This document shows positions 1,334 to 61,059 of a stretch of DNA of 64,000 nt, piece by piece. This stretch comes from Sutcliffiella sp. FSL R7-0096. Lineage in GTDB: Bacteria > Bacillota > Bacilli > Bacillales > Bacillaceae_I. The stretch lies in NCBI RefSeq assembly GCF_038595065.1, contig NZ_CP152003.1:3762001-3826000 (forward strand), in the 5' to 3' direction. The notes under the pieces are model-generated. The model saw only the letters and a list, made by a program, of their open reading frames with translations. It was not told where the DNA came from and made no database searches. Position 1 is the first letter of the stretch, and each line of letters begins with the position of its first letter. Both the position numbers and the translations under genes were made by a program.

Positions 1334-4291
1334 ATGTCAAACTACGACAAGTTCAAAGAAAAATCGCAGACCTTTTTTCGGTTTTTTGTAAATAATAAGA
1401 CGAAAAAAGGAGCCAACATTACATACTTAGTAGTGTGGAATCTAATTCTTGTTTTTCTCGTTATCGGATTGATCGGTGTATCTTTCGCCGGTGGTGCCGG
1501 TGCCGGTTATTTTGCCGCACTGGTAAAGGAGGAGCCTATCCGTTCTTATGAAGATATGAGAACAAACATTTACAACTATGAAGAATCTACAGAAATGTAT
1601 TTTGCAGATGACGTCTATTTGGGAAAATATCGTGCAGATCTACTTCGTGAAGAAGTGTCCCTGGATAACGTTTCAGAGCATTTAATCAACGCGCTTATCT
1701 CCACTGAGGATGAATATTTCTACGAGCATGAAGGGGTCGTGCCCAAAGCGATTGTACGTGCCATTGTTCAAGAAGTGACAAATTCGGCCAACCAAACCGG
1801 TGGTAGCACGTTGACACAGCAATTAATCAAGAACCAAGTATTAACAAACGAAGTCTCCTTTGATCGTAAAGCAAAAGAGATTCTTCTTGCCCTTCGATTA
1901 GAGAACTATTTTTCAAAAGAAGAGATTTTAGAAGCATACCTGAATGTTTCCCCATTCGGAAGGGATTCAAATGGTAGAAACATCGCAGGAGCGCAGACAG
2001 CAGCAGAAGGTATCTTTGGCGTAGATATTGGCGAATTGACTATTCCACAGGCCGCTTTCATCGCTGGCTTGCCGCAAAGTCCTTTTGCCTATACTCCATT
2101 CACTCGGTCTGCAGAGGTAAAAGCGCCGGAAGGACTCGAGCCTGGCCTTGAAAGGATGCGCTATGTTCTACACCGGATGCATACGATGGGACATATCGAT
2201 GACAAGCAATACGAGGAAGCACTGGCATATGATATTACTAAGGATTTAACAGGTCCAACAAACAGTGCCATTGACGAATTCCCATATGTAGCATTTGAAA
2301 TAGAAGAAAGAGCACAGGAAATCATTGCTGAGCAACTAGCATTAAATGATGGATACGAGATTACAGACCTAGAAAATAATGATGAATTGTATAGAGAATA
2401 TAAACTTTTGGCAGACACCGCTTTAAGGCATAAAGGGTATGTCATCAAAACTACCATAGATAAAGATATCTATTCAAAAATGAGGGAGATAACACAAGAA
2501 TTCCCTTATTTCGATGGTACTAAAGTTTACTCTTATGAAGAAGAAAAAGATCCAGATACCGGGGAGTTGGTTGCTAGAAACGCAGAGCAAGTAGGGGCTT
2601 TGCTAATGGACAACAAAACCGGTGCAATCATCAGTTTTGTTGGAGGACGCGATTTCAAGCTGAAGGATTTGAACTTCGCAACGAATACATGGCGTCATAA
2701 CGGTTCCACGATGAAACCATTATTAGGATATGCACCTGCCTATGAGATGGGAACTTTACAGCCTGGTAGCATCCTTGCAGATACACCGTTGACTGTTAAG
2801 CTTCCTGGTCAGGATGCATGGTCTCCTAACAACTGGAACAATCGATTCAATGGATTACAAACGGTTCGGGAATCCGTGGCATTATCTCATAACTTAGCAG
2901 CTATCCGCGGATATATGGAAATCCTGCCGCAACGTCCTATGGATTATCTATTCAAGCAAAACTTCACGAAGCTTACACAAGGCGATGCTGGGAACATATC
3001 AGCTGTACTTGGATCCCCATCAGTCGGAGTAAGTGTAGAAGAGAACACTGCCGGTTATGTAACTTTTGCAAACGGAGGAAATTACGTAGAACCGTATTTA
3101 ATTGAAAGCATCACCACAAAAGATGGCGATGTCATCTATGAGCACAAGGTAGAGCCGGTTGAGATCTATTCTCCACAAACAGCCTACCTGATGATTGATA
3201 CAATGCGCGATACCTTCAAAAGGGGTACTGCCATACCTGCAAGGGATTATCTGCAATTCCGTGCAGATTGGGCTGGTAAAACAGGTACTACTCAAGATAC
3301 TCATGATATCTGGATGATGGGCTCTAATCCTAACATCACTTTCGGACTGTGGATGGGTTATGATGAGCGCCACGTCTTAAGAAGTCTCGGGGATCGGACA
3401 CCTACTAAGAGAAGTCAATTATTGTGGGCACAACTCCTGAACGGAGCCTATGACATCAAACCTGAATTAATCGGTCCTTCCGAACAGTTCCAAATGCCTG
3501 GCGGAATCGTTCGACGAAGCTATTGTAAGTTGTCCGGATTGCTGCCATCCGATCTATGTAGCAAGGCAGGCTTGGTTGGAGAAGATCTATTCAATGCAAA
3601 ATATGCTCCCACCAGAACGGACGACAGCCTGACAACAGGGAAATATGTTCAAATTGGCGATGTGGCGTATGCGCCGTTAAGTTCCACTCCTAGAGAGTTT
3701 GTAAAAGAAGGACCAATGCTGAAACCTGATTTCTTAAAGAAGTTGCAAATCAGCAGTATGGAAGAGCTGGCAAAGTACATGCCAAATAGTTCGATCTTTG
3801 ATGGCTTGACCGTACTATCAAATGATCCACTTCCATCCAACAGTTCAGCACCTGGACAAGTTGGCGGTGTGAGCATTTCCGGTTCCACGTTGAAATGGTC
3901 CGCAAGCTCTCAAAAGGACGTTATCGGATATTACGTATACTATAAAGCTAACAGTTCAAGTTCTGCCAGTAAGATTGCGGCTGTGCAGGCAGGGAAAAAT
4001 CTATCGACAAATGTATCACAAAAATCTGGTTTCTTCTATGTCACTGCCGTTAATGCAAGTGGCAAAGAGTCGGCCCCTTCAAGCTCTGTGAAGCTTGGAG
4101 ATCCAGACAAGAAAGAAGAACCTAAGCCAAAACCAAAACCAAAGCCAGATCCAAAACCACCTTCCAATGGTGGCGGTAATGGCGGCGGCAACGGTGGCGG
4201 CAACAGTGGCGGTGGAAACGGCGGCGGAAGTGGCGACGATAATTCCACAGATCCACCACCAGATGATAGCGGGGATGACGAAGAAGATTGA
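1334..4291 (+). CDS. Class A penicillin-binding protein (transglycosylase/transpeptidase)
   Basis: Bifunctional peptidoglycan synthase anchored in the membrane. A cytoplasmic N-terminus is followed by one membrane helix at about residues 29-60. The GT51 glycosyltransferase domain has catalytic Glu125 in STEDEYFYEHEG and the motif GGSTLTQQLIKN. The transpeptidase domain has SxxK at Ser458-Lys461 (GSTMK), SxN at Ser518-Asn520 and KTGT at 649-652. A fibronectin III-like module (about 835-920) follows, then a Lys-Pro repeat, a Gly/Asn-rich stretch and an acidic end (DDSGDDEED). The 985-residue length fits PBP1A/1B-type enzymes with C-terminal extensions. The start is set by GGGGGGT eight bases upstream. 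B. subtilis has no PBP gene at this position. It is monocistronic and ends at a strong terminator. I do not assign a specific pbp/pon symbol. Confidence 0.93.
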   Translation: MSNYDKFKEKSQTFFRFFVNNKTKKGANITYLVVWNLILVFLVIGLIGVSFAGGAGAGYFAALVKEEPIRSYEDMRTNIYNYEESTEMYFADDVYLGKYRADLLREEVSLDNVSEHLINALISTEDEYFYEHEGVVPKAIVRAIVQEVTNSANQTGGSTLTQQLIKNQVLTNEVSFDRKAKEILLALRLENYFSKEEILEAYLNVSPFGRDSNGRNIAGAQTAAEGIFGVDIGELTIPQAAFIAGLPQSPFAYTPFTRSAEVKAPEGLEPGLERMRYVLHRMHTMGHIDDKQYEEALAYDITKDLTGPTNSAIDEFPYVAFEIEERAQEIIAEQLALNDGYEITDLENNDELYREYKLLADTALRHKGYVIKTTIDKDIYSKMREITQEFPYFDGTKVYSYEEEKDPDTGELVARNAEQVGALLMDNKTGAIISFVGGRDFKLKDLNFATNTWRHNGSTMKPLLGYAPAYEMGTLQPGSILADTPLTVKLPGQDAWSPNNWNNRFNGLQTVRESVALSHNLAAIRGYMEILPQRPMDYLFKQNFTKLTQGDAGNISAVLGSPSVGVSVEENTAGYVTFANGGNYVEPYLIESITTKDGDVIYEHKVEPVEIYSPQTAYLMIDTMRDTFKRGTAIPARDYLQFRADWAGKTGTTQDTHDIWMMGSNPNITFGLWMGYDERHVLRSLGDRTPTKRSQLLWAQLLNGAYDIKPELIGPSEQFQMPGGIVRRSYCKLSGLLPSDLCSKAGLVGEDLFNAKYAPTRTDDSLTTGKYVQIGDVAYAPLSSTPREFVKEGPMLKPDFLKKLQISSMEELAKYMPNSSIFDGLTVLSNDPLPSNSSAPGQVGGVSISGSTLKWSASSQKDVIGYYVYYKANSSSSASKIAAVQAGKNLSTNVSQKSGFFYVTAVNASGKESAPSSSVKLGDPDKKEEPKPKPKPKPDPKPPSNGGGNGGGNGGGNSGGGNGGGSGDDNSTDPPPDDSGDDEED

Positions 4292-18897: not shown

Positions 18898-20013
18898 ATG
18901 AAAGATCCTCGGATTCAAACACTTGCAAAAAATTTGATAAACTATTCCGTACGTCTTCAAAAAGGCGAAAAAGTATTAATTGAAAACTTCGGTTTGCAAA
19001 AAGAGCTGGTAATCGCACTTGTAGAGGAAGCTTACAAAGCTGGAGGCTACCCTTTCGTATCCTTGAAGGATGTCCAGGTTGACCGCGCACTGTTAATGGG
19101 GGCACAAGAAGAACAATTTAACATGAAAGCCGATTTCGAAGCAAATGTCATGAAGAATATGGACGCATATATCGGCCTTCGTTCAGGTGACAATATCTCA
19201 GAATTATCAGATGTTCCAGATGACAAGCAAAAAATTCAAGGTAGCACAGTTGGAAAGAAAGTACACCGTGATATCCGTGTGCCTAAAACCAAATGGGTTG
19301 TCCTCCGCTATCCAAATGCAAGTATGGCTCAACTAGCTAAAATGAGCACTGAAGGATTCGAAAACTTCTACTTTGATGTGTGTAATTTAGATTACGGAAA
19401 AATGAGCAATGCCATGGATGCTTTAGTTGAACTGATGAACAAAACGGATAAAGTAAGAATCACTGGTGAAGGGACTGACTTGACTTTCTCTATCAAAGAT
19501 ATCCCTGCAATTAAGTGTGCTGGGGAAATGAACATCCCTGACGGGGAAGTTTACACAGCTCCCGTGAAGGACTCTGTAAATGGAACGATCACGTATAACA
19601 CTCCATCTCCTTATCAAGGGTTCACGTATGAGAACGTAAAATTGACTTTCCGCGATGGAAAGATTGTGGAAGCATCAGCGAATGATTCTGATCGTATAAA
19701 CAAAATTTTCGATACAGATGAAGGAGCACGATTTATCGGAGAATTTGCGATTGGAGTTAACCCGTATATCCAACATCCGATGCAGGATATTTTGTTTGAT
19801 GAGAAAATCGACGGCAGTTTCCACTTCACTCCTGGTCAGGCCTATGAAGATGCTTGGAATGGCAACAATTCCGACATCCATTGGGATATGGTGATGATCC
19901 AGCGTCCTGAATATGGTGGTGGAGAAATCTATTTCGATGATGTATTGATCAGAAAAGATGGAAAGTTCGTCATTTCCGAGCTTGAAGGTTTGAATCCTGA
20001 GAATTTAAAATAA
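18898..20013 (+). CDS. Aminopeptidase of the M29 (AmpS/aminopeptidase T) family
   Basis: A 371-residue cytoplasmic metallo-aminopeptidase that removes N-terminal residues from peptides. The sequence matches the M29 clan throughout: LINYSVRLQKGEKVLIENF at the N-terminus, conserved Glu in CAGEMNIPDGEVYTAP, IGEFAIGVNP and the metal-site region GSFHFTPGQAYED plus HWDMVMI near the C-terminus. AGGGGGCC precedes the ATG. It is shorter than the 410-residue AmpS of B. subtilis, so no symbol is given. It is monocistronic, divergent from ytxG, with a terminator 15 bases after the stop. Confidence 0.9.
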   Translation: MKDPRIQTLAKNLINYSVRLQKGEKVLIENFGLQKELVIALVEEAYKAGGYPFVSLKDVQVDRALLMGAQEEQFNMKADFEANVMKNMDAYIGLRSGDNISELSDVPDDKQKIQGSTVGKKVHRDIRVPKTKWVVLRYPNASMAQLAKMSTEGFENFYFDVCNLDYGKMSNAMDALVELMNKTDKVRITGEGTDLTFSIKDIPAIKCAGEMNIPDGEVYTAPVKDSVNGTITYNTPSPYQGFTYENVKLTFRDGKIVEASANDSDRINKIFDTDEGARFIGEFAIGVNPYIQHPMQDILFDEKIDGSFHFTPGQAYEDAWNGNNSDIHWDMVMIQRPEYGGGEIYFDDVLIRKDGKFVISELEGLNPENLK

Positions 20014-33245: not shown

Positions 33246-35399
33246 ATGAAAACAATAAGAGGTAGAGTAAGATTTATTTTATTGGCAGCCATAACAGGTC
33301 TTATCATTGTGTTATTATTCAATTTCTTTTTCTACTTTACTCAATCCACTGCAAAAGAGCAAGAAACCGCTTTGTTTGAAGCTGTAAATGGAAGTAAAGA
33401 AATAAAGTTCGCTTTCTCTGATACTCGTAAAAATGAACAGGAGTTTTTACGAATTCCAAGTGATGAAACTTCCATGGTCATTAAAGAAAATTTAGAGATC
33501 ATCCAGCAAGAGTCAGCTGATATGCAACAGCAGTTTGCTGCATATGAAGAGATCGCAAGCCGCTTTTCTCAAATCGAAACGGCCGCATCAAATTATCTGA
33601 ATGAATTTATTCCTCTTGAAGAGCTTTATAAAGAAATAGGTTTTACCGAATTCACCGGCCTCCAGGGAGTTATGAACGGTTCGGTCAGAAACCTAGTTAT
33701 CAATGTAAGGGGGGCAAATCGCGAGGAACTTACAACCACTTTAATGAACATGAGACTCTATGAACAACAGTATCTGGCTACCAAACAGGAAGCTAGATAC
33801 CGTGAATTCATAAAAAGCTCCGATACATTCAAAGCACAATTGGCAGAGGCGGATCTTCCTGATTCCCAGAAGAATGGGTTATTGGAGCTTTACAATCCAT
33901 ACGTGCAAGCAATGACGGATTTGTACAACAATTACACCGCTTCGTACCTCTTTGTAAGAAACTTTGAAACGATAAGCGACGAAGTGGAGGCAAGTGTAAA
34001 TGAAGTGGAAGCTGCGGTGTCCGATCTGCAAGCACAGCTTCAACAAGAATCAAACGGGAAGCTTCAAACCATTATGTTGCTTACACTAATTATTAGCGTA
34101 CTTTTATTAATATTCTTAAGTACAACAGGCTATTTCCTAAACCGAAAAATTGCCTCTTCCATCCGTTCTCTGAAAGATGGAGCTTCTAAAATTGGAGAAG
34201 GGAATTTCGCTTACCGTGTTCCAATCACCACCAAGGATGAAATGGCAGACCTTGCAGTAACCTTTAATGCTATGGCTGAGAAAGTACAGACTTCCTTGTT
34301 AAAAGTGATGGAAGCCACAGATAAGCTACAGTCTTCCTCTCAAAATCTGGCGGCAATATCTGAAGAAACAACCGCACAGTCGACAGAGGTGAACGAAGCG
34401 ATCAAACAGGTCGCCATCGGTTCCAGCGAGCAGGCTCTGCATCTTGATGAGAGTACTGACATTTTAAAACGAGTCAAAGCGGCTGTTGAACAGGCAGACC
34501 ACTTAAGCATGGAAATTAAATCAAAAGCCGATCACGCTAGACTGGTTGGGGAGGACGGATTGACGGTAGTGAAGGACCTGCACCAATCATCCGAGCAGTT
34601 CCTGGAGCTTGCCAACCATTTGACTGAACGGGTACAACAGGCAACAAAACAGTCCCAGCAGATACATACCATCGTTGCCACTATACAAGAAATCGCAGAG
34701 AACACCGACCTATTGGCATTGAATGCTGCTATTGAATCTGCCCGGGCTGGTGAGGCTGGAAGAGGATTTGCCGTTGTCGCTCAAGAAGTTCGTAAACTTG
34801 CTGAGCGTTCGAAGCATGAAGCATTATCCATTAAAAAGCTTGTGACAGAAATGGGCAATCAAATGAGCAAACTATCCAATGACGCCTTGCAGTTCAACGA
34901 GTATAGAGATCTACAACAGCACTCAGTTGATCAAACGAAAACATCTTTTGAAAAGATTGCTGGAAATGTTCTTGAAATCAATCATAAGGTGGACGATGTT
35001 CAGCAAGCGATTGTACAGGTTACCCAGTCAAATAAGCAATTAGAGGAAAAGCTATCAGAAGTCCATTACATCTCCGAAGAAGCTGCGGCTACCTCCGAGC
35101 AGGTCAGTGCTTCCAGTGAGCATCAAATTGTCGCAATCGAACAGGTGAATGAAGCGGCTATCTCACTCTCTGATATTGCTACTGAACTCCAAGAGGAAGT
35201 AAGCCAGTTCATCGTGGAAGAGGAAATCGGACAGATGAATGGGCAGGATATCGTGACCAACGAACAGACGGACATTCACGAAGATGAAGAAGAAGTCACC
35301 CCTGAAGAGGAAGAGGCCGAAGCTAGATGGGCTCATGAAGAAGCTGCTGCGGGCATGAAAGAAACCGCTGCTTCCTCAGAACAAGAGAATAAACACTAA
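33246..35399 (+). CDS. Methyl-accepting chemotaxis protein
   Basis: Transmembrane chemoreceptor of 717 residues that signals to CheA/CheW. TM1 is about 11-31 and TM2 about 273-295, enclosing an extracellular all-helical sensor of about 240 residues without an obvious Cache or PAS fold. A HAMP domain follows (about 296-350), then the long signalling coiled coil with the hairpin tip [19 protein letters not shown] (about 485-503) and [18 protein letters not shown]. The C-terminus has an acidic Glu-rich tail. GGGGGG lies 5 bases before the ATG. The ligand is unknown. It is a single gene between unrelated neighbours, followed by a terminator. Confidence 0.93.
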
Positions 35400-35407
35400 T
35401 CAATGCA

Positions 35408-35441
35408 AACCAGTTTGTCCAAGACAAGCTGGTTTTTTCTT
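35408..35441 (+). terminator. Terminator of the chemoreceptor gene
   Basis: ACCAGTTTGTC and GACAAGCTGGT pair (with one G-T) around CAA and are followed by TTTTTTC. Confidence 0.85.
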
Positions 35442-35448
35442 TTCAAAA

Positions 35449-35498
35449 GGCTGTTTTTTTCGTATTTAGCGAATGGCAACAATCCTTGAAAAAGAGCC
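35449..35498. mobile_element. MITE-like element, 50-bp miniature copy with 8-bp target duplication
   Basis: Begins GGCTGTTTTTTTCG and ends CTTGAAAAAGAGCC; the internal part keeps GGCAACAATC, which matches the inner right end of the larger copies at 41222 and 45990. It is flanked by identical octamers TTTCAAAA at 35441-35448 and 35499-35506. It encodes nothing. It lies between the chemoreceptor terminator and the lipoprotein gene. Confidence 0.7.
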
Positions 35499-35555
35499 TT
35501 TCAAAAAAAAGAATACGACAGGCACTTCCTCCCCATCATATTCTTTCTCTCCTAC

Positions 35556-38954: not shown

Positions 38955-38997
38955 AGAGGCCTGGCAGCAAGCATTTCTGCCAGGCCATTCCTTTACT
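38955..38997. terminator. Bidirectional terminator between ytzB and ytnP
   Basis: GGCCTGGCAG and CTGCCAGGCC are exact complements around CAAGCATTT; followed by ATTCCTTT. The ytnP stop lies at its right edge. Confidence 0.8.
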
Positions 38998-39841
38998 TTA
39001 TACGTACCACTTTATCTTTTATTTCAAAGCGTTCATTCCATTTTACTGCACGGTAAAATGCATCATGGTAGAAGGTGAACCATGCATTGCGCCCAATCCC
39101 ATCTTTGATCCACTTCTCCTTTGCTTCTATTGATGTCATCGGATAGTCGTCATAGGCCAGTACCCATAGGGATGGGGAATGAGCGTGGGTGGGCATAAGG
39201 TCTGCCATGTGAATTATGGTTTCCTCCCCTTGTGTCAATTCGACAATGGAATGTCCATCACTGTGTCCACCTGTGTGGATCATTTTTATCCCCTCAATGA
39301 CCGTTGTTTCTTCTGTAAAAGTCTTTACTTGCTCTTCAATACCTTTCCAGTTCATTTCCCAGTACGTGTTTATGGAACGGATATTAGGGTTTCTCATTTC
39401 ATTCCACTCCACCTCTGAAACATGAATGGTGGCATTCGGAAAAACGGATACGTATTTCTCTTCCTTTGTATCCCACGTGGTAAGCCCGCACACATGATCA
39501 AAATGAAGATGTGTCATGATGATGGTGTCAATATCCATTGGTGTTAAACCGAGTTTTTGTAAATCCTCTCCTACTGAAGACTCCTCTGTCGCACCAAAAT
39601 TCCGTTTCTGTTTATCAGAAAGTTTACCTTTTCCTAGCCCTGCTTCAATAAGGATATTACGGTCCCCTGTTTGGATAAGGATCGGATCTGTTCGAAGTTC
39701 AATCTGGTTGCTGTCGTTTACTGGGTACCTCCTTGACCATAATGCCTTTGGAACCACCCCGAACATGGCCCCTCCATCAAGATGTGTTACCCCTCCGTTC
39801 AACCAAGTCAGTTTCCATTCCCCAAATGTTAGCGTTTCCAT
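38993..39841 (-). CDS. ytnP: Metallo-β-lactamase fold hydrolase YtnP (lactonase-like)
   Basis: A 282-residue zinc hydrolase of the AHL-lactonase-like group. B. subtilis YtnP inactivates a streptomycete signalling compound. The metal motif HLHFDH (in [14 protein letters not shown]) is complete, a further His lies in [13 protein letters not shown], an Asp in [11 protein letters not shown], and a final His in FYHDAFYRA. The ATG at 39841 is chosen because GGGAG is 9 bases upstream and the B. subtilis protein starts METL; an ATG nine bases earlier abuts that site. The upstream region holds the 52-bp tandem hairpin array. Confidence 0.92.
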
Positions 39842-39944
39842 TTCAGTCATCTCCCTCTTTGTTTTTTGTATGTATGACCTTATTGTATCAAAAAAAGGTA
39901 ACCTTTCGCGAACATCCTGGTAGACCCATCGTAAAAACTAACAT

Positions 39945-40488
39945 GAGATTGTCTTCATCCCCCCATGAAGACAATCTCCTCCCAAAATCAAGTTCGAGAT
40001 TGTCTTTATCCACCCTATGATGACAATCTCATCCCAAAATCCAGACCGAGATTGCCTTCATCCACCCTATGATGACAATCTCATCCCAAAATTCAGACCG
40101 AGATTGTCTTCATCCTCCCTATGATGACAATCTCATCCCAAAATCCAGACCGAGATTGTCTTTATCCACCCTATGATGACAATCTCATCCCAAAATCCAG
40201 ACCGAGATTGTCTTTATCCACCCTATGATGACAATCTCATCCCAAAATCCAGACCGAGATTGTCTTTATCCACCTTATGATGACAATCTCATCCCAAAAT
40301 CCAGACCGAGATTGTCTTCATCTACCCTATGAAGACAATCTCATCCCAAAATTCAGACCGAGATTGTCTTCATCCACCCTATGAAGACAATCTCATCCCA
40401 AAATTCAGACCGATTTTGTCTTCATCACCCTTATGATGACCCTTCCATCTCAAAAATCCAGACCGAGATTGCCTTCGTCACCCCTTTC
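39945..40488. repeat. Tandem array of about ten 52-bp hairpin-forming units
   Basis: GAGATTGTC-type units start at 39945, 39996, 40048, 40100, 40152, 40204, 40256, 40308, 40360, 40412 and 40465 (steps 51, then 52 eight times, then 53). Each full unit holds an inverted repeat, GAGATTGTCTTCAT and ATGAAGACAATCTC, around a CCACCCT-type loop, then the linker CATCCCAAAATCCAGACC. Units 1, 8 and 9 have a perfect 14-bp stem; others have mismatches at stem positions 10 and 12. Outer units are degenerate and central ones nearly identical. The unit length is not a multiple of three. It lies downstream of trmB and upstream of ytnP. Confidence 0.93.
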
Positions 40489-40504: not shown

Positions 40505-40545
40505 CAATACAAAAAAACGCCTCCTCAAAAAGGGGCGCTTTCAAG
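40505..40545 (-). terminator. Terminator of trmB
   Basis: On the minus strand, AGCGCCCC and GGAGGCG-type arms flank TTTTTGA and are followed by TTTTTTTG. The stem is imperfect but the T-run is strong. Confidence 0.7.
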
Positions 40546-40546
40546 T

Positions 40547-41188
40547 CTATTCTGGATATTTCACTTCACATCGATAAATAGGAAAACCTTTACTGGAAAA
40601 CTTCTCTTCATACTCCGTCATGATATTTCCTTCAAAGTCACTGTTATGAAGGTCTAAGCTGACATACTTCAATAAAAGGCCGTACTCAGAAAAGCTCATC
40701 AAACTATACTCAAACAATCCACGGTTGTCTGTCTTAAAGTGAATTTCTCCTTGCGAGACCAATACTTCCTTGTAAAGATCGAGGAAAGCCTTGTACGTAA
40801 GCCTTCTTTTTTCATGGCGGGTTTTTGGCCAAGGATCAGAAAAGTTCAAATAAACCCTGTCTATTTCTCCTGCATCGAAATACTCCGCTAACTTTTGAGC
40901 ATTTACGTTCAAAAGCTTTACATTCGGAATATCTGCTGCGACTGCCTTTTCCAAAGCCTTCACAATCACGCTTTCAAAAAGCTCTATTCCAATATAATTA
41001 ATCGATGGGTTAGCTTTTGCCATCTCTGTAACAAATGTCCCTTTTCCAGTCCCCACTTCAATGTGGATCGGATTATTGTTGCCGAAAATATCCGCCCACT
41101 TGCCTTTATGGTTTTCGGGATCTGGAATGCAGTAATACGCATTCTCTGCGATAAACTCTGTTGCCCATGGTTTGTTTCTGAATCTCAT
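40547..41188 (-). CDS. trmB: tRNA (guanine-N7-)-methyltransferase
   Basis: Methylates G46 in the tRNA variable loop using S-adenosylmethionine. The 213-residue protein starts [13 protein letters not shown], has the SAM-binding loop [16 protein letters not shown] (about 39-54), the adenine-contact region GIELFESVI, the motif [15 protein letters not shown] and the C-terminal [16 protein letters not shown], all typical of TrmB. Position between ytnP and ytzH matches B. subtilis ytmQ. AGGTGAC precedes the ATG. Confidence 0.95.
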
Positions 41189-60828: not shown

Positions 60829-60954
60829 AGTATCACCTCTACTATGGTATGTTTATACTATTAGACATCGTTCTACAAATTTCCTCCTTTTTCTAAGCGG
60901 AAATCTCGGTGAGAATTTGATTATGAGGTATAGCGAGTTACTCTCAAGAAAGGA

Positions 60955-61059
60955 TTGTGACTTTTCGGAGGGTTATTATGACTTTTTTGAAGGTGATTGC
61001 GACTTTTCCAGACGTTATTGTGACTTTTTCACCAGTTATTGTGATATTTCGGAATCCGG
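60955..61059. repeat. Array of five units with exact 21-bp period (TTGTGACTTTT motif)
   Basis: TTGTGACTTTT or a close variant starts at 60955, 60976, 60997, 61018 and 61039, a constant 21-base step. Consensus over the units is TTGTGACTTTTCNGANGGTTA. The last unit is diverged (TTGTGATATTT). Units are not translatable as a conserved heptapeptide with a plausible start. Function unknown. Confidence 0.8.

Follow-up and report, generated by a model that had tools for sequence, protein, structure and literature searches.

An apparently undescribed family of 52-bp hairpin arrays in Bacillales, exemplified by the trmB–ytnP array of Sutcliffiella

The intergenic region between trmB and ytnP in Sutcliffiella sp. 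FSL R7-0096 carries a tandem array of ten hairpins at 52-bp steps, which is apparently one copy of an undescribed family of intergenic arrays in Bacillales. The family has a nearly constant geometry and is spread over the order, its arms covary, its AT-rich tracts are phased, and its arrays prefer the 3′ ends of genes. As the best explanation, held at somewhat less than even confidence, it is proposed that the arrays act as an intergenic DNA scaffold at the ends of transcription units, in a way that would resemble BIME-2.

The array between trmB and ytnP

In the window, by which is meant the whole 64,000-nt stretch analysed, taken from genome G000 (other G numbers denote comparison genomes), TRF found the array at 39945–40483 with a period of 52, 10.4 copies, and a score of 843, compared to 74 for the second-best array. 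A count of base pairs resolved ten hairpins and a terminal half-hairpin, of which only the left arm is present (40465–40478); none of them is assigned to a strand. Hairpins 1 (39945–39978, loop of 6, terminator-like on the minus strand), 8 (40308–40342), and 9 (40360–40394) form 14 of 14 pairs, hairpin 4 (40100–40134) forms 13, hairpins 2 (39996–40030), 3 (40048–40082, with one outer pair broken), 5 (40152–40186), 6 (40204–40238), and 7 (40256–40290) form 12, and the degenerate hairpin 10 (40412–40446) forms 8. Consecutive starts are 52 bp apart eight times and 51 bp once. The original prediction of about ten 52-bp hairpin units, with perfect stems in units 1, 8, and 9, is thus borne out, and its view of the array as non-coding is supported. 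The nine outer pairs, which all other units were expected to keep, are complete in units 2, 4, 5, 6, and 7, but not in unit 3 (8/9) and unit 10 (4/9). When 12 or more of the 14 pairs and a loop of 6–8 are required, there are 10 hairpin starts inside the array and 11 across the remaining window. Two other elements of the window are an AT-rich array at 60954–61044 with a 21-bp step, i.e., two helical turns, and the motif TTATTGTGACTTTT (further 21-bp arrays occur in relatives, at L164 4554–4646 and L168 4295–4369), and a T-box leader on the minus strand at 944–1175 (135.7 bits).

The minus strand of 39945–40240 folds with z = −8.8 as RNA and z = −9.7 as DNA in comparison with 200 dinucleotide shuffles, none of which was equally stable. 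The stable RNA fold favours an RNA-level element, in which transcribed strings of hairpins would protect transcripts, terminate them, or be bound by an RNA-binding protein; however, the DNA fold is equally good, and we consider this explanation improbable. No Rfam family matched the array at its gathering score, and the sub-threshold matches, mostly to plant and animal microRNA families, are chance. Intrinsic termination by the hairpins themselves was rejected, as the terminator scan of the window, which looks for a T-run right after the stem, lists one of the ten, hairpin 1 on the minus strand.

Both neighbouring genes, trmB (40547–41188, NCBIfam NF001080) and ytnP (38993–39850, NCBIfam NF047919), lie on the minus strand, along which the stop of trmB is followed by an intrinsic terminator, the array, a TACAAT box, and ytnP. 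The terminator (40511–40538, minus strand), read from the sequence, has a stem with one bulge and T7; a folding-based scan likewise found a T-run and hairpin 34 nt upstream of the array. The TACAAT box (39882–39887, minus strand), a putative −10 element that is absent from the list of a simple promoter scan, lies 57 nt beyond the array end and would serve as the ytnP promoter. In several relatives devoid of the array (e.g., G013 and G014), the T-run of the terminator leads straight into TGATACAAT and abuts the TACAAT box. With the box as putative promoter, the array most likely lies outside both transcripts, which argues against the RNA-level element. Because the array sits between the trmB terminator and this presumed promoter, the suggested role as 3′UTR of trmB or 5′ leader of ytnP is unlikely; the other part of that suggestion, a DNA-binding platform, may hold.

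The trmB–ytnP locus in relatives

Among 15 genomes having trmB (G001, without a trmB match, was left out), five carry an array at this locus (G000, G005, G007, G009, and G011) and ten carry none. Because it is absent in 10 of 15 genomes, the array is dispensable there, and this absence counts against a DNA scaffold. With arrays in four relatives, it is not confined to a single strain, which had been named as a possible outcome against the original prediction, and the comparison of copy number proposed with it shows that size varies, from three to five elements in the four relatives to ten hairpins in G000. Near-identical units within each array and the variable array size support the proposed unequal exchange from a middle stock. 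The same homogenised units and variable copy number, together with the missing arrays of the ten genomes, are also consistent with neutral tandem repeats, which would arise by slippage and unequal exchange and whose arms would be matched by template switching during correction of quasi-palindromes.

All five array-bearing genomes have the motif TTCGCG in common at the ytnP-side junction, and G004 keeps the junction sequence at this locus without an array. From the junction sequences, the array may be read as ancestral and as lost more than once. The target-site duplication of MITEs was not seen by eye at the array edges; a 17-nt duplicate around the insert of G007 lies outside the array and may result from terminator conversion. 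The position that corresponds by synteny to window 35232–35504, about 5 kb from the trmB–ytnP array, carries an array of a second subfamily in G006, G007, and G008 and array-less other sequence in G003, G004, G005, G009, and G011; the window itself has no array there.

A dispersed family in Sutcliffiella

A blastn search with the array gave 44 matches in its own genome, where 14-mer arms with at most two mismatches were found 173 + 130 times, compared to 26 + 31 for the reversed control. The covariance model R1, built from 61 units of 20 G000 loci (including L017, later ambiguous in orientation), gave 158 matches at E ≤ 1 in that genome, with 150 of 3289 first-look candidates scored, and at least 23 array loci were found with it among the matches listed. 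The arms and the 52-bp step are common to the loci, and the linker is locus-specific yet nearly identical inside each array. Aligned R1 units contain 87.9% standard pair cells and reach a covariation score of 0.109, both higher than in any of 500 shuffles; less clear is the number of pairs in which both bases changed, which 33 of the 500 also reached. Covariation across the loop is also what an RNA-level element would leave. The second subfamily (ATGAAGACC...) is present in the same genome outside the 23 loci.

In relatives, R1 at E ≤ 0.01 matches 12 of 15 members of the genus and one of two members of other genera of the family; for G002 and G012, neither R1 nor the ATGAAG-CTTCAT pattern gave any match, which counts against a DNA scaffold. 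The patchy distribution among close relatives favours the closest rival of the scaffold, namely a selfish non-autonomous interspersed repeat. Here a putative enzyme would recognise the hairpin or the ATGAAG ends and copy and amplify the units, the 52-bp spacing would reflect a need of the enzyme, and the host would gain nothing; we regard this as possible, if on the unlikely side. It is further favoured by the second subfamily of G007 (contigs C1, C5, and C6), whose near-identical linker at several loci, observed among those listed of 146 exact elements, points to a young subfamily and recent spread. However, many arrays sit at orthologous places in relatives: array-masked flanks match a G000 stretch in alignments of 400 nt or more for 16 of 20 stretches of G009, 6 of 10 of G005, and 4 of 10 of G007. 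This persistence argues against a selfish repeat, and so does the lack of matches on plasmids and phages, each searched with one array, not the same for both. In viral sequences, at least 120 stretches have a match (one each in the 80 listed), a raw figure. The size of orthologous arrays differs, with about two hairpins at 4750 kb in G000 compared to 11.9 TRF copies in the corresponding DNA of G006. Four arrays of G007 (L204–L207) lie, by eye, within copies of a longer shared sequence, so a larger repeat may carry some arrays along. In the draft genome G009, contigs C1, C5, C6, C8, C9, and C11 end inside arrays, which probably break assemblies.

Spread across Bacillales and geometry of the unit

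Weak R1 matches in another family share the 52 step, including a 260-bp super-repeat (5 × 52). This super-repeat, in G253 (L160, about 2370–3340), has approximately four copies with hairpins at 52-bp steps; in the same genome, a 122-bp tandem repeat (L158 2378–2769, 3.2 copies, 99%) lies directly beside a 52-bp array. Because the weak matches kept the step, the order was searched with the pattern ATGAAG-N32..34-CTTCAT-N6..8-ATGAAG, which has 18 fixed bases. It is present in 60 of 397 genomes and 29 of 135 genera, and 39 genomes, which belong to 19 genera and 13 families, have ten or more forward matches, the maximum being 234. The reversed-pattern control gave 0 in every row of the search, and some single matches, among them those of G211 and G328, appear to be chance hits in coding sequence. 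In a phylum-wide sample, which takes in a few members of the order, only 2 of 398 genomes have the pattern, the own genome of the array and one with a single match. This difference between order and phylum argues for a DNA scaffold. Searching other genomes with the unit, a check suggested with the original prediction, has thus revealed a family that is both genome-wide and order-wide. The ATGAAG ends recur across the order; one search had them in the query, and another did not. Such recurrence speaks against neutral tandem repeats.

The geometry was determined for 96 arrays with 450 elements from 28 genomes, with duplicates removed and two-element calls included. The element finder accepted elements of 43–47 and loops of 4–10, mildly penalising lengths other than 45. 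It misses degenerate arrays (none was reported at trmB in G009, where four hairpins are present), and three two-element calls, around window 4281, around window 35284, and at L240, resemble coding chance, those that passed the filter being kept among the 96. The element is 45 nt long in 423 of 450 cases, the loop (spacer) is 7 in 344 of 354, and the step is 52 in 332 of 354, with 51 in 19, 53 in 2, and 50 in 1; G108 and G183 have only steps of 51 plus one of 50. The unit therefore consists of a 45-bp inverted-repeat element with ATGAAG...CTTCAT ends and a 7-nt spacer, and the corresponding search motif is ATGAAG-N33-CTTCAT-N7. Between genera, these ends, arms that covary across the 7-nt loop, and the 45 + 7 = 52-bp step are kept, and little else; linkers of different genera show no likeness by eye except for A/T tracts. 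ATGAAG is nearly constant, and the bases next to it are species-specific (GAC, ACC, TTC, GCC, or ACA) with the complement on the opposite arm. That step and element length hold while the linkers differ between genera argues for a DNA scaffold. Neutral tandem repeats are very improbable, since across many genera the sequence of the linker turns over and its length hardly does. An RNA-level element would not need the fixed 52-nt pitch either.

Which of the two possible folds is conserved was read from differing neighbour units, in counts that see each junction from both sides. At depths 7–10, loop-side versus linker-side pairing amounts to 22 v 19, 45 v 8, 22 v 22, and 66 v 27; at depths 11–15, it is 36 v 27, 67 v 53, 45 v 43, 87 v 41, and 52 v 61. 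These counts favour a hairpin centred on the loop at depths 8, 10, and 14, though not everywhere, and the pairing of arm bases across the loop at these depths supports a DNA scaffold; depths 7, 9, and 13, which do not discriminate, and depth 15, which leans to the linker, are counted against it. Linker-centred pairing as the conserved fold is disfavoured by the same counts. When the strand with the G-rich loop is taken as the upper one, G·T mismatches exceed A·C mismatches (239 v 171 in 351 hairpins), a slight lean to RNA that is also counted against a DNA scaffold. The G-rich loops of one strand and, in other genera, its purine-rich linker likewise fit an RNA-level element.

The ends of arrays bear on the selfish repeat. 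Among 144 ends of 72 arrays with at least three elements, the outside arm is missing in 88, doubtful in 21, and clear in 35. Many short arrays in the stretches of G005 and G007 hold three elements, in a sample picked from blastn hits, which disfavours arrays of one or two elements. Such arrays, many of which begin and end in a half-hairpin, and the 88 ends without an outside arm favour a selfish repeat, but where both edges of an array were inspected by eye, they showed no repeated sequence.

Helical phasing of AT content

The length of 52 bp corresponds approximately to five turns of the double helix at 10.4 bp. In 67 Sutcliffiella arrays, the AT power of the unit is largest at harmonic k = 5 (10.4 bp), where it reaches 21.3, compared to 7.0 for the next harmonic; in 14 genomes of other genera, the values are 27.4 and 11.0. 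The conserved arms contribute to the k = 5 signal in both sets. The linker on its own also carries this signal, nearly in phase with the arms plus loop, at −41 v −44 degrees in Sutcliffiella and −37 v −47 degrees in the other genera. Column permutations gave P = 0.022 and 0.010, and with circular shifts of the linker the observed vector was never reached, at 20000 trials for each of the four sets used, which overlap. Taken alone, the linker has a broad AT peak, about 11–13 bp, and the linker window takes in the A/T tracts adjacent to the arms, which is counted against a DNA scaffold. It is mainly because of this phasing, with linker and arms in phase at harmonic 5, that a role at the DNA level is preferred. 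An RNA-level element has no need of phased AT tracts, and under neutral tandem repeats the tracts would not be expected to hold their position, as they do.

Genomic placement

Two flanking ORFs are available for 85 arrays, of which 29 lie between convergent, 49 between tandem, and 7 between divergent genes, compared to 16, 66, and 30 of 112 array-free gaps in the same stretches. Convergent gaps are favoured (Fisher test, P = 0.0018) and divergent ones avoided (P = 0.0009); in this count, ORF calls are mechanical, orthologous arrays are not independent, and four more arrays lie inside ORFs and seven lack a flank. A folded terminator is present within 250 nt upstream, on the strand with the G-rich loop, in 11 of 23 G000 arrays and on either flank in 13 of 23, compared to 28 of 325 pieces drawn at random from these stretches, intergenic or not. 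With a stricter scan, such a site was found upstream for 5 of 23 arrays, compared to 20 of 1249 randomly drawn pieces. Four arrays lie approximately 185–230 nt past the 5S of rRNA operons; these (L115–L118) have a long upstream flank in common and look like paralogous copies. The arrays thus favour gene 3′ ends, often beyond intrinsic terminators. The avoidance of divergent gaps, the preference for convergent ones, the upstream terminators, and the four arrays past 5S argue for a DNA scaffold, although gene ends would also tolerate insertions of a selfish repeat.

The terminators upstream of 11 of 23 arrays speak against an RNA-level element, and so do the arrays L120 and L129 between tandem genes of G000, where the G-rich loop strand is antisense to both neighbours (L122 is ambiguous). 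On the other hand, the end units of L128 (G000 2754.6 kb) and L119 (850.0 kb) look, by eye, like an intrinsic terminator for the convergent gene; they stay in register with the 52-bp step, and the changes in their arms are compensated. Such end units favour an RNA-level element.

Orientation relative to replication was rejected as a signal. By R1 strand, the sense is the same for 20 of the 23 loci of G000, opposite for two, and ambiguous for the locus at 985 kb; a near-palindrome is oriented only by the composition of its loop and linker, so strand skew can explain the 20 of 23. A purine count gave 13 of 23 in another, partly overlapping set, with the terminus taken as 2.45 Mb; by skew, the terminus of G000 lies before 2.38 Mb, and three arrays were placed on the wrong arm.

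A possible DNA scaffold

BIMEs are located at the 3′ ends of transcription units, and BIME-2 arrays with gyrase in E. coli are thought to take up supercoils or act as a boundary. If the DNA scaffold is correct, then the dyads CTTCAT-N7-ATGAAG would be bound on one helix face by a putative dimeric protein that binds, bends, or wraps DNA, such as a nucleoid protein or a topoisomerase. Alternatively, supercoiling might extrude the dyads as cruciforms. Lying directly behind a terminator, an array could absorb supercoils driven by transcription or act as a local boundary. The arrays would grow and shrink by unequal exchange and occasionally spread to new loci. A more far-reaching version, which we consider doubtful, assumes an order-wide chromosomal scaffold with dyads five turns apart and in-phase AT tracts at the ends of transcription units, including rRNA operons. 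It would be read by a putative Bacillales protein whose specificity, for the bases that follow ATGAAG, evolves together with the arrays, species by species. The arrays would amount to an extensive repeat family of Gram-positive chromosomes into which a helical ruler is built. The family offers a simple search motif, may explain assembly breaks in these genomes, and makes a Bacillales counterpart of the E. coli BIME-2 gyrase sites testable.

Comparison with known repeat systems

The original prediction held that no named family fits, and this is supported by Rfam and by the literature, where the accessible parts of the sources, including PMC3733652, PMC12306157, PMC2267715, PMC6379681, PMC3049150, and PMC545597, contain no description of a 52-bp hairpin array in Bacillales. 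CRISPR was rejected, as there are no unique spacers and the linkers are nearly identical within an array. The core site of a Y-recombinase, with inverted arms around 7 bp, was also rejected; by eye, the spacers of a short array differ from one another, and none recurs at both edges. The MIRU/VNTR loci of mycobacteria are dispersed tandem arrays with units recognisably related between loci; in contrast to them, the 52-bp family has a strict dyad as its unit, with hardly any variation in length. Stem-loop repeats of Bacillus genomes are similar in kind, and PMC2267715 lists sizes of 147–167 bp for Bcr1, 74 for Bhal-1, and 72 for Bant-1. The last two are set apart by these listed sizes, not by sequence, and identity with one of them is possible. 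BOX elements of Streptococcus, according to PMC3049150, are interspersed, have a variable number of tandem middle modules, and are predicted to form stem-loops, all of which resembles the 52-bp arrays. However, no ends similar to boxA and boxC are seen by eye outside the arrays, the whole array being one module, and among 23 G000 loci no flanking module is shared, by eye, except at the four rRNA loci.

The closest likeness is to REP and BIME. The 52-bp family consists, as these do, of arrays of intergenic palindromes with many copies per genome, here up to hundreds of pattern matches, and its 25-bp dyad (9 + 7 + 9) falls within the 20–40 bp of such small palindromes. It differs in the fixed 52-bp pitch, in direct repetition of the unit, and in its occurrence only in Bacillales in the samples searched. 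The REP palindromes of RAYT systems carry a GTAG or CGTC tag at one end, as stated in PMC3733652, and this tag is missing from the consensus of Sutcliffiella and of other genera. A RAYT partner was rejected, as RAYT NF047646 does not follow the arrays: at E ≤ 1e-3 it was found in 19 of the 22 genomes rich in arrays and 13 of the 18 poor in them, only 10 of the 40 exceed the curated cut-off, and the array-rich G226, G259, and G289 have no match. This also argues against a selfish repeat. In E. coli, BIME-2 elements are gyrase sites, according to PMC6379681. Considering these likenesses and differences, the arrays would not be a member of REP/BIME, although in their working they may resemble BIME-2.
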